Part shown: piece after piece, positions 25,539-29,550 of the stretch
Numbering within the stretch: position 1 is the first letter of the stretch
Layout of the letters: every line of letters starts with the position of its first letter
DNA from: Psychrobacter glacincola
Lineage (GTDB): Bacteria > Pseudomonadota > Gammaproteobacteria > Pseudomonadales > Moraxellaceae
Assembly (NCBI RefSeq): GCF_904846215.1
Contig: NZ_CAJGZK010000019.1
Location: 1 to 64,000, forward strand
Length of the DNA stretch: 64,000 bases
Reading direction: 5' to 3'
Position numbers and translations under genes: made by a program
Notes under the pieces: generated by a model
Seen by the model: the letters and a program-made list of their open reading frames with translations, nothing else
Databases searched by the model: none
Told to the model about the DNA's origin: nothing

Positions 25539-26426
25539 ATGGCTAACCCCTCAAAAAAAGCAATCAATAAAGCAGTTCAAGACAAGAATATCATTATAAC
25601 GGGGGCATCAAGCGGTATTGGTGAGCGGACTGCCTATTTACTCAGTGAATGCGGCGCTCATGTCATTTTATTAGCACGAACTGAAGATAAGCTAAAAGCC
25701 GTTAAAGAAAGTATTGAGGAGCTTGGTGGTAAGGCCAGTTATTACCCTTGTGATTTGACCAACATGGATGAAATTGAAAAAGTCAGCACGCAAATTTTGG
25801 CGGATTTTGGTCATGTTGATGTATTGGTAAATAATGCGGGGCGTTCAATTCGACGCTCGGTTCATGAGTCTACTGAGCGCTTCCATGATTTTGAGCGCAC
25901 CATGGATATCAATTACTTTGGCGCAGTCAAAATCGTCCTTGGATTTTTGCCGACGATGATTGAACGTCAAACAGGTCAAATTGTTAATATCTCATCGATT
26001 GGTGTATTGGCAAACAGTCCGCGTTTTGCCGCGTATGTCGCCTCAAAATCGGCATTAGATGCTTTTAGTCGTTGTTTAGCTGCTGAAGTCAAAGGCGATA
26101 ATGTGACGATAACCAATATCTTTATGCCATTGGTACGCACGCCTATGATTGAGCCGACTAAGTTATACCGTTACATGCCGGCGCTTATGCCAGATGAGGC
26201 AGCAATGATGGTCGCCAAAGCGATTGTTCATAAACCAAACAGTATTGCCAGCAACATGGGTAAATTTGCCTCAGCTACTTATTCATTGGCACCAGCGATT
26301 AACGTTGGTATTCAATCGATAGGTTATCGTATTTTTCCAAGCACTCGTGCTGGACTGACTACTGATAAAAAACCAAACCTTGCCCAGCGTGCCTTTGCTA
26401 GAATCTTACCGGGTGAGCATCACTAG
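25539..26426 (+). CDS. Short-chain dehydrogenase/reductase
   Basis: NAD(P)-dependent oxidoreductase of 295 residues. The cofactor motif TGASSGIG lies near 22-29 and NAGRS near 98-102. The catalytic serine is in NISSIGVL and Tyr/Lys in YVASKSA near 166-172. The C-terminal 60 residues extend beyond the classical SDR core. AAAAGGAT precedes the ATG. The substrate cannot be told. It is monocistronic and ended by a terminator at 26457-26484. Confidence 0.88.
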   Translation: MANPSKKAINKAVQDKNIIITGASSGIGERTAYLLSECGAHVILLARTEDKLKAVKESIEELGGKASYYPCDLTNMDEIEKVSTQILADFGHVDVLVNNAGRSIRRSVHESTERFHDFERTMDINYFGAVKIVLGFLPTMIERQTGQIVNISSIGVLANSPRFAAYVASKSALDAFSRCLAAEVKGDNVTITNIFMPLVRTPMIEPTKLYRYMPALMPDEAAMMVAKAIVHKPNSIASNMGKFASATYSLAPAINVGIQSIGYRIFPSTRAGLTTDKKPNLAQRAFARILPGEHH

Positions 26427-26456
26427 AATAGTATTCTATTAGCTTTGATCTAAAAT

Positions 26457-26484
26457 AAAAGAGGATACTACGGTATCCTTTTTT
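26457..26484 (+). terminator. Rho-independent terminator after the SDR gene
   Basis: AGGATAC pairs with GTATCCT around a four-base loop, with A and T runs on either side. Confidence 0.88.
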
Positions 26485-26641
26485 AATGCATAAAAGATTA
26501 CTGATACTCATGTAAATAGGTAGGAAGTGGATTTCTATTTACCATAAAGCCCGTTATGGGAATAGCAGACAGTGGCAAAACCTCAATAGCAGGCGCATCT
26601 TTGCTGCGCTCGGCGCCAAAAACGCATAGTTAATTAACTTG

Positions 26642-28030
26642 TTATATTTCATCAAACTTCTGTTTTAGCTTGTAGTTATTACTCAGTATTCTTTGAATAT
26701 CAAGCTCTTCGAAACCCAACTGCTGTAGAAGATGAAGCTGAAAGACAGCTTCCATTTTTTGACATAGTCTCCATAGTTCCGAGCCTTTAAGAGAGTCTTT
26801 TTCAAGATCCTCACTATAGTGAGTAAGATAATTTCTAGTGTTGACTACGTTTCTAATAAACTTATTTCGCTGCTTTGAACTTCCGATATAAGACTTGTAA
26901 GGCTCAATAATCCGTTTAATCCTTTGACCAAGATTAATTTCATTGCCATGATACAACCGCCCCCGCAACCATCTCCTATGTTGTTTTGGGCAATTCCATA
27001 GAATAGATGCGATCATTGCCCTAAACTCTGCTTCATCTTTCAAGGTCTCATTTGATGTTCTTCTATGATACGTTTCTAGAGCTTGTGCAAGTGCCAAGAA
27101 TTTTCCATCCAAGTACTTGTAGTCTCCAGATACTGCAGAGAAATACAGCCCAAGAGACGGGCGTATTATCGAGTAGGTACTAAACCATTGATTAAATACA
27201 TGTTCAGCATTTTCATGAATGTCTGCAAAACGAAATAGCATTTTATGTGTGTCAATTTTTGGTACATTATCTGAAAAAGGTAGACTGGGGTAGTATAGTT
27301 TCATAGTCACAGGTATTGTTTTCCCTTGTGAAATTTCCCTGACTATCTCATTTGATGTTGCAGATACGTCACTAATCGTGACTGTAGAATCAACCGCAAA
27401 ACCAAGTAAATACGTAAGTTGATGTATAATCTTGCTGAACTCTACAAACTCCTTTGCATCATCAGATGATAATCTGAAGTACGTTCGATGAGTTATTTTA
27501 GCTTCTGTTGTATTACCAGATCCTGGAAGCGTATATCCGAAAAGGATATGCAACTTAAATCCTGTTTGTAAGTTGTAGACTATTTCTTCCTGAGGAACAT
27601 AACTTATAGTTGCTGTTTTGTAGTCGCTGCTATAGGAAATTCCTATTCCGGTTATCCCTACCCACTCGTTTATACCTTCTACTGTGAAAGTAACAGTATT
27701 AAATGTAATAGCTTCGTCTTTACCATAGCGAACCCCGCTAATGACTTTATTGACATGAACTGTTGATTTGCTTATACCGCCAAATGCAAAATTCTTCTTT
27801 CTGTAGAAACAGTTCTCTAGAGTAACAAAACCATCTTTTTCTACGTGACCAACAATTCTTCTTAGATCATCATTTCCATTAAGAGCTTCAATACTTTCAT
27901 CAAATAGGCCAACTACCTCAAGTTCAATTTCTCCACCATCTAGTATAGATAAGTTTCCTGGAATTTTTTTATCTTCGTTTTCAGGAAGCAAAAAGTAACC
28001 AGATTTTTTCAATTCTTCTTTAATTCTCAT
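26642..28030 (-). CDS. ApeA-like HEPN-domain anti-phage protein
   Basis: It has 462 residues. The N-terminal two thirds (about 1-300) resemble the ApeA N-terminal domain: GNLSILDGGEIELEVVG, then ENCFYRKKNF, KITHRTYFRLSS and LYYPSLPF. The C-terminal region is an Apea-like HEPN domain with the RNase motif R-x4-H at Arg399-His404 in RNYLTHYSED. ApeA proteins are single-gene abortive-infection systems; HEPN domains of this type are RNases. AAGGAAG lies before the ATG. Codon use differs from the neighbours (AGA, ATA and GGA are frequent), it is AT-rich, and no housekeeping partner is nearby, all suggesting transfer. The role rests on recognition, not on a search. Confidence 0.8.
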   Translation of the reverse strand: MRIKEELKKSGYFLLPENEDKKIPGNLSILDGGEIELEVVGLFDESIEALNGNDDLRRIVGHVEKDGFVTLENCFYRKKNFAFGGISKSTVHVNKVISGVRYGKDEAITFNTVTFTVEGINEWVGITGIGISYSSDYKTATISYVPQEEIVYNLQTGFKLHILFGYTLPGSGNTTEAKITHRTYFRLSSDDAKEFVEFSKIIHQLTYLLGFAVDSTVTISDVSATSNEIVREISQGKTIPVTMKLYYPSLPFSDNVPKIDTHKMLFRFADIHENAEHVFNQWFSTYSIIRPSLGLYFSAVSGDYKYLDGKFLALAQALETYHRRTSNETLKDEAEFRAMIASILWNCPKQHRRWLRGRLYHGNEINLGQRIKRIIEPYKSYIGSSKQRNKFIRNVVNTRNYLTHYSEDLEKDSLKGSELWRLCQKMEAVFQLHLLQQLGFEELDIQRILSNNYKLKQKFDEI

Positions 28031-28153
28031 TTGACTTCCTTGTAAAAACTAATGCCTCGTTAAGAAGCTAAAATAATCATTCAAATTAAGCAACGGAGTA
28101 ACATACCAATTGTTATCTGTCCTATAATTATTGTAAAATTTTAGGTATACCCC

Positions 28154-28228
28154 AAGGGAACCAGTTATTTTACCCTCTAAACCTATTAATAGACCACTTA
28201 AAACAGACTGGTATAATGGAACCACTTA
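28154..28228 (-). promoter_or_regulatory. Three spaced direct-repeat motifs upstream of the ApeA-like gene
   Basis: Read on the minus strand, TAAGTGGTTCC, TAAGTGGTCT and TAACTGGTTCC occur at 28228-28218, 28200-28191 and 28164-28154 (approximate edges), 28-36 bases apart. They lie 125-200 bases upstream of the gene start. They could be operator half-sites or the remains of an element end. Confidence 0.4.
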
Positions 28229-28235
28229 TAATAGA

Positions 28236-28700
28236 CTAGCCAAACACACGCCATAATATCCAAAATAACCCTGCCATGATGATAGCAATGATGAGTAGTC
28301 GCTTTGCCCAGTAGGGCAGTAAGGGTTTTTTATAGCCCAAATCATTAAGCTGATTATCAAGACCATCTTGTAAGCTTTGAAAGCCTTGTTCGGACGGTGT
28401 GCTTTTGACTTTACTCTTAATTAAGCGCTCAGTATCGTCCTCGGCCTGTTCTCTGTCAAAGCTAAATGCTTGACTGGGAATCCCTTGTTTATTGGCGATA
28501 CTGTTTAATTTTTGCTGCTGTTCGTTTTTGATAGCAAGCTCGTACGCATCTATACGAGATTTTGCAGCATCCATGCTGATATTTTCATCAGTGGCTAACG
28601 TCTTAATCGCCATGACCAGATTGCCTTTTTCGACCATCATAATAACGGTCTTTGGTAATCTTATTTTGGCAGGCTTTGAGCCTGAATCAGAGTCAAACAT
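28236..28700 (-). CDS. Small tail-anchored membrane protein with an L7/L12 C-terminal-like segment
   Basis: 154 residues from the ATG at 28700, which has AAGGAC six bases upstream (an upstream open stretch to 28775 lacks one). Residues about 10-45 (KTVIMMVEKGNLVMAIKTL, then SMDAAKSRIDAYE) resemble the ribosomal L7/L12 C-terminal motif I..L..G.K..AIK..R...GL.L.EAK. A polar middle follows. The end is one hydrophobic helix (RLLIIAIIMAGLFWILWRVF), so it is probably anchored by its tail with the body in the cytoplasm. The function is unknown. Confidence 0.7.
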   Translation of the reverse strand: MFDSDSGSKPAKIRLPKTVIMMVEKGNLVMAIKTLATDENISMDAAKSRIDAYELAIKNEQQQKLNSIANKQGIPSQAFSFDREQAEDDTERLIKSKVKSTPSEQGFQSLQDGLDNQLNDLGYKKPLLPYWAKRLLIIAIIMAGLFWILWRVFG

Positions 28701-28832: not shown

Positions 28833-29363
28833 TTATAGATCTTTCCAGCGCTGGATAGACTCTTTAATCACTTCTTTGGCCTCGCTCACATCACCCCAAG
28901 ATTCAACCACCGTCGTCCCTGGTTTTTTAAGGTCTTTATAATGGCTAAAATGGAACTGTAACTGGTTGATCAGCTGCTTTGGTAAGTCCGCCAGACTGTT
29001 ATAAGCATTGCCTGTATCACGGTCGTCAGCAGGTACGACGACGATTTTGTCATCGACTTCGCCATCATCAACGAACTTCATCACACCGATGACTTTCGCT
29101 TTTAAGAAAATACCAGTCGGCAAAGGCTGTTCAGTGAGGATTAGGGCATCAAGCTCATCACCATCTTCATCAAGGGTTTGCGGGATAAAACCATAGTTGC
29201 AAGGCTTGGCAAAAATCTGTGGGTCAACACGATCAAGCTCAAATACGGCCAACTCGCGATTCCACTCAATTTTATGGCTACTACCAGCTGGGATTTCTAT
29301 TACGACATTGATGATGCCGCCGTCGACATCGCCTGCGTCCAAAATTTTGTTAAAATCTGCCAT
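28833..29363 (-). CDS. ppa: Inorganic pyrophosphatase (family I)
   Basis: Hydrolyses pyrophosphate to drive biosynthesis. 176 residues from the ATG at 29363, chosen because GGAG stands six bases before it; an upstream ATG at 29375 has no site. Metal-binding aspartates are in DEDGDELDALIL. The E-x7-K type element EIPAGSSHKIEWN and YGFIPQT are also present. Length matches the E. coli-type enzyme (176). Confidence 0.96.
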   Translation of the reverse strand: MADFNKILDAGDVDGGIINVVIEIPAGSSHKIEWNRELAVFELDRVDPQIFAKPCNYGFIPQTLDEDGDELDALILTEQPLPTGIFLKAKVIGVMKFVDDGEVDDKIVVVPADDRDTGNAYNSLADLPKQLINQLQFHFSHYKDLKKPGTTVVESWGDVSEAKEVIKESIQRWKDL

Positions 29364-29550
29364 AAAATACTCCAATTTACTTTTGTTATGAATGTTTGAG
29401 TCGTAAAGGGTTAAAGTCGGCGTACAAGGTTTGTTACTGCGCCCAATTTGTGCCGTTTTCGATTATAACAAGTTTGAATCAAATTTTCTCACAATGCTTA
29501 AGTCTAAGCGCGCACGATATTATGCAAAAAAGGATTATGCAAAAAAAGAC

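Follow-up and report, generated by a model that had tools for sequence, protein, structure and literature searches.

ApeA is reportedly a defence system described by Gao et al. 2020, and the title of an ApeA preprint is said to state that deoxydinucleotides activate it. Deoxydinucleotides are end products of DNA breakdown. In the excerpted text of Anantharaman et al., ApeA-NTD1 is a mainly beta-stranded domain of about 300 aa to which HEPN is joined; in HEPN RNases, Rx4-6H, where helix 3 ends, forms the RNase active site, with R and H both used, and Ex3[KR] is described beside it (PMC3710099). HEPN RNases work as dimers, according to a passage of PMC13405049. Tha, found in S. aureus prophages, is described in the excerpted text of PMC11087260 as an infection-activated HEPN RNase with an R-x4-H motif that degrades RNA and loses protection when the His is mutated, and PDC-S58 is listed in Streptococcus thermophilus ST55 in a part of PMC11514479.

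We analysed a stretch of 64,000 nucleotides of Psychrobacter glacincola DNA (the window), in which an initial annotation had proposed a lone ApeA-like defence gene (Table 1). The open reading frame starts with ATG, and AAGGA, read from the sequence directly 5' of the start, is a plausible ribosome-binding site. The N-terminal region had been described as ApeA-like, and profile searches matched both ApeA Pfam families far above their cut-offs, ApeA_NTD1 with E = 3.6e-54 (184.5 bits against a gathering score of 25.5, profile positions 2–271 of 271) and HEPN_Apea with E = 1.6e-42 (145.6 bits against a gathering score of 24.4, positions 1–134 of 136), which disposes of the opposite outcome, a protein matching no ApeA family. 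The PADLOC model PDC-S58 covered residues 5–455 of 462 (E = 1.4e-89) and the PADLOC model Cas13-ApeA also matched (E = 5.2e-68), while NCBIfam gave no matches for the protein. These searches confirmed the predicted product as full-length ApeA with both domains in the known order and, judged by its sequence, the gene is a new intact standalone example of an already known kind of defence system. A limited literature search found no paper on ApeA in Psychrobacter.

Table 1. Coordinates of the ApeA locus and its flanks in the window, and of broken genus copies in the loci named.
Feature	Position	Strand	Basis or remark
SDR oxidoreductase, left flank	25539–26426	+	Pfam adh_short; 80/105 genus genomes at E ≤ 1e-60
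Terminator-like hairpin flanked by T runs, 3' of SDR	26462–26479		conserved left flank
Inserted segment, ~1.57 kb, absent from relatives' intervals	26563–28137		flank homology breaks; edges ± ~20 bp
ApeA gene, 462 aa, intact	26642–28030	-	ORF, Pfam ApeA_NTD1 and HEPN_Apea; PADLOC
HEPN_Apea domain, residues 312–442, predicted RNase	26705–27097	-	PF18739; helical in model
Catalytic motif R399-N-Y-L-T-H404	26819–26836	-	RNYLTH from residue 399; invariant 12/12
ApeA N-terminal domain 1, residues 9–282, mostly beta strands, putative sensor	27185–28006	-	PF18862
Conserved right-flank gene, 179 aa	28236–28775	-	TTG start; match in 68/68 intervals
ppa, inorganic pyrophosphatase	28833–29375	-	104/105 genus genomes; PDB pyrophosphatases matched
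Broken genus copies	L117 6001–6279; L110 14347–14555; L111 191–915		fragments

The catalytic motif R399-x4-H404, which the initial annotation had placed in the C-terminal HEPN domain, lies exactly there (Table 1). All 12 aligned sequences share R399, N400 and H404; they are the ApeA of the window and 11 relatives picked without the motif, from plasmids, genome contigs, a single E. coli record and the initial viral scan. The same residues are invariant in 17 of 17 sequences of a second alignment, partly by construction because 13 of its 16 relatives came from a scan with TRNYLTHY as one of two patterns (two of these 13 had also come from an earlier scan). N400 supplies the polar residue that must follow the motif R under the R-x4-6-H definition, as worded in the excerpted text of PMC3710099. 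Among the aligned ApeA relatives, E319 is invariant and R323 is conserved at 94%, and E319-x3-R323 fits the Ex3[KR] motif of HEPN RNases. It is highly likely that the ApeA of the window would act as an RNase with an abortive effect on infection.

The whole-protein structure model (pLDDT 86.3, pTM 0.83) is rich in beta strands in its N-terminal half and helical in its C-terminal half, and its helix 385–404 terminates at H404; the N-terminal domain was also modelled as residues 1–258 (pLDDT 82.3, pTM 0.79). PDB sequence searches with ApeA returned nothing relevant and matched no solved structure, and Foldseek gave no matches at E ≤ 0.001, whether whole ApeA was compared with the PDB or its N-terminal domain with viral models. 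Because neither kind of search gave a match, the putative sensor and its trigger rest on the preprint title. In VIA-align comparisons of the N-terminal domain, the best row was 5xeu_B (Z 5.1, rmsd 4.2 over 106) and YcgR 5y6f scored Z 4.1 (rmsd 4.2 over 82), with all rows under Z 8; a resemblance of the modelled domain to Hcp (Z 5.1), phage tail tube or PilZ (Z 4.1) barrels, with no row above Z 5.1, is a hint only and too weak to build on.

The initial annotation had set out a second finding that would speak against it, namely a gene conserved at this place across the genus with typical composition. Instead, only 3 of 105 genus genomes match ApeA, and the full-length gene occurs only in this genome. 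One of the other two matches, in G014, is a partial copy containing a run of N; the second, in G095, is a remnant of the last 48 residues that reads as adjoining a transposase-like end. In a genus search with the HEPN_Apea family, G014 and the own genome passed the cut-off, and G096 gave a weak match under it, with stops. A 36-kb Psychrobacter plasmid (YP14) carries the first 91 ApeA residues at 82%, in a copy that reads as interrupted by an IS3-type transposase sequence. Because the other genus copies seen are broken, such genes appear to be easily lost.

At higher ranks, ApeA matches were found in 3 of 390 genomes of the order and 5 of 369 of the class, the own genome being counted in both. 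Of the full-length relatives named, that of Marinobacterium weihaiense is nearest at 83%, followed by that of Salinicola halophilus at 72%, and a further genome of the class holds a full-length one at 69%; the scan of genome contigs gave only two relatives because it picks up close relatives only. When 5,426 E. coli genomes were searched for distant DNA matches, one partial match came up in one genome, falling in a HEPN gene between integrase-domain genes. ApeA relatives are also present on 56 plasmid records and in 15 viral-contig loci, and none of 50,697 phage records encodes one. Some relatives lie near restriction/modification genes and integrases, including two loci (L130 and L131) beside phage-type integrases. 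The Marinobacterium ApeA adjoins an E2-ThiF-JAB fusion (Prok-E2_A, ThiF and Prok-JAB; L113 7181–9511), a type of ubiquitin-like machinery that occurs near anti-phage systems.

Base and codon use had been said to differ from those of the surrounding genes, and among 45 non-overlapping ORFs of at least 150 aa within the window, ApeA is indeed the least typical, with the poorest synonymous-codon fit, a GC content of 36.1% against a median of 45.2%, and a GC3 of 29.2% against a median of 42.6%. The best eight listed of the lowest-GC 1575-bp stretches all begin at 26576–26801. Atypical codon use alone is not proof of acquisition, since the always-present 179-aa neighbour is the second most codon-atypical of the 45 ORFs. 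Homology of the left flank to the intervals of 67 relatives reaches ~26562–26564, and that of the right flank resumes at ~28126–28146. The segment in between has a GC content of 36.2% versus 43.0% for the window and carries ApeA alone, with no other ORF of at least 70 aa according to our own ORF picker. The DNA held in common with copies elsewhere spans 26611–28052 (Marinobacterium) and 26597–28029 (Salinicola), and that held in common with fragments spans 26580–26789 (G095) and 27765–28071 (YP14 plasmid); because the DNA common with copies elsewhere ends close by, the mobile unit is scarcely longer than the ApeA gene. The analysis shows ApeA to be a horizontal acquisition, received as a ~1.57-kb segment between two conserved convergent genes.

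A short GGCGC element lies 20–30 nt past the stop codon of ApeA in all four aligned copies (window 26600–26630, L113, L114 and L110) and is retained where the remaining flank sequence diverges; it could be a terminator or an edge of the mobile unit. Several vehicles and signals were considered and rejected. For a transposon-borne insertion, no direct repeat was found across both junctions among the repeat families listed, and 0 of 40 singly scanned cargo proteins from this interval in the genus is an integrase or transposase. For an integron cassette, the integron integrase model TIGR02249 was over the cut-off in 0 of 1 genome, with five weak matches below it, a result that speaks for the own genome only; the 3' flanks of four copies, aligned and inspected by eye only, contained no convincing attC. 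The hairpin at 28054–28068, 5' of the ApeA start and a candidate attenuator or terminator, is by eye absent from the YP14 copy and was put down to chance. Promoter-like sites in the region number 5 versus a mean of 7.2 in shuffles, i.e., fewer.

The still foreign composition of ApeA, and the reduction of the other genus copies to fragments (91 aa in YP14, 48 aa in G095 and a partial copy in G014), would also suit a decaying passenger, a recent arrival that is still unbroken and neither expressed nor useful in its host. However, the copy in the window is complete and retains its catalytic residues and a plausible ribosome-binding site, and its dN/dS is 0.14 versus the 83% Marinobacterium copy, an average that includes other hosts. 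The value versus the 72% relative is 0.07, a rough figure with a dS of 2.5 near saturation. We regard decay as extremely unlikely, and consider it very probable that this ApeA was acquired and works as a single-gene defence system, for which we infer phage protection.

A comparison of 20 ApeA loci, reaching as far as 4 kb to either side and less at contig ends, showed that any given neighbour family was shared by at most two loci; IstB, an HU-like protein, an integrase and three families of distant viral contigs account for those in two loci. Because no neighbour recurs in more than two of the 20, ApeA is standalone, and PADLOC gave no matches for ten window genes neighbouring it, so that the lone, single-gene character proposed at the outset holds. 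The same data bear on whether the protein could be the HEPN toxin of a toxin-antitoxin pair of the HEPN-MNT or RnlA-RnlB type, with its antitoxin next door and mainly an addiction or stress role. HEPN RNases are common as toxins in the excerpted account of PMC3710099, and plasmid ApeA genes are often near toxin-antitoxin genes, namely BrnTA (L121), PIN/Phd-type (L119) and RES-type (L122). The nearest candidate partner, the 179-aa neighbour, nevertheless has no match above the cut-off and occurs in each of the 67 other intervals, all without ApeA, and the insert offers no second ORF of at least 70 aa in its place. With the neighbour conserved without ApeA and no recurring partner, we rejected such a pair as most unlikely and retain the standalone reading.

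The gap between the SDR terminator and a gene at 28236–28700 had been said to look like an insertion site. That gene is real, although its ORF extends further, to a TTG start (Table 1). It gave no Pfam matches above the cut-off, no NCBIfam matches and no PADLOC matches, and it is always present yet diverging quickly (46–92% identity to relatives). The hairpin 3' of SDR, for which the minus-strand reading comes from the program listing and the plus-strand reading was made by eye, is conserved in relatives. We measured the SDR-ppa gap (window 26427–28235) in the 68 genomes, our own included (L043–L109 plus own), with SDR and ppa within 20 kb on one contig, leaving out 12 genomes in which the two genes are on different contigs (10) or far apart (2). 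The gap ranges from 768 to 15441 bp with a median of 4752.5, and is below 1 kb in 5 and above 4 kb in 37 of the 68 genomes. It is hypervariable relative to the narrow ppa-lipB control gap, which measures 161–380 bp in 66 genomes, G106 with its split ppa and G089 with its split lipB being excluded. All 68 intervals keep the 179-aa gene, and ApeA is found in the own interval only. The interval is more unusual than the ApeA gene itself.

The interval cargo comprises 297 ORFs of at least 70 aa in 115 clusters (own ORF picker), and a Pfam family was assigned to 32 of 40 cluster representatives scanned singly. A four-gene set of MesX, a methionine-synthase-like protein, a flavin reductase and TauE fills the site in 15 genomes (G099, G095, G069 and 12 more: L060, L061, L064, L065, L079, L083–L091 and L109), and a copper ATPase set is present in 10–11; other named cargo includes ars, MFS, TerC, cation efflux, two-partner secretion, SUKH, patatin and regulation. 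Such a wide interval next to a narrow control gap might specifically gather anti-phage systems in the genus, ApeA among them, and the initial annotation had suggested defence cargo in the SDR-to-ppa interval of relatives. This expectation was not borne out, since the named cargo is mainly metabolism, transport, metal resistance (copper ATPase and ars), regulation and two-partner secretion. PADLOC matched 105 families with 72 representatives, with many ATPase models among the 25 listed. Of ten cargo proteins run singly, 8 had no match, a patatin had a weak local match, and an ABC-type ATPase had many ATPase-model matches. No second clear defence system is among the PADLOC matches listed (25 of the 105 families, given without the proteins that matched them). 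With cargo families mostly non-defence, we consider a site dedicated to defence highly unlikely; the gap looks like a real insertion site for accessory genes generally, rather than for defence.

A tentative extension, which we consider possible if somewhat doubtful, is that the gap between SDR and the 179-aa gene and ppa is a genus-wide exchange site without its own integrase, where the conserved flanks would recombine transformed DNA and single cassettes would swap one by one, arriving or leaving. If this is true, defence genes could spread outside islands, prophages and integrons, and ApeA would have been caught as one swap.

The proposed mechanism is as follows. In healthy cells, ApeA would be inactive. 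DNA breakdown during infection would yield deoxydinucleotides, and the beta-rich N-terminal domain may bind them and so sense phage infection. The HEPN dimer, with its R399/H404 pairs as the active site, would then be switched on and cut RNA, whereupon growth would stop and the phage would fail to spread, i.e., abortive infection. Deoxydinucleotides, of the triggers reported so far the most concrete, are the reasonably probable trigger for the ApeA of the window; the trigger may differ because the HEPN protein Tha responds to tail proteins, not nucleotides.

The locus presents a full-length ApeA settled in a core-genome interval instead of a recognised defence island; the other traces found in the genus are all fragments. 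Its compact size and clear limits (an insert of 1.57 kb), its 83% relative and the clear catalytic control would make it suitable for asking whether ApeA proteins other than the published one are also activated by deoxydinucleotides, and the hypervariable SDR-ppa interval offers a ready site for studying single-gene exchange without an obvious integrase.

Among known systems, Csm6/Csm6' HEPN effectors aligned best in structure with the C-terminal portion of ApeA (8pe3_B, Z 4.9 and rmsd 4.6 across 101 residues), spanning model residues 289–441 with a Z below the level treated as telling, and the Csm6 sensor domain differs from that of ApeA. PDC-S58 matches residues 5–455 of the protein and differs in being a phage defence candidate label. 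Tha, compared by description, is likewise a single-protein HEPN RNase with R-x4-H, but in the excerpted text it has 301 aa and no recognisable N-terminal domain, and is triggered by phage tail proteins (PMC11087260). The likeness to ApeA, which belongs to the ApeA/BMEI1217 HEPN family, is drawn via Pfam and description and extends to both full-length domains in order, the R-x4-H motif, the single gene and a similar size, whereas the host and the locus are new.
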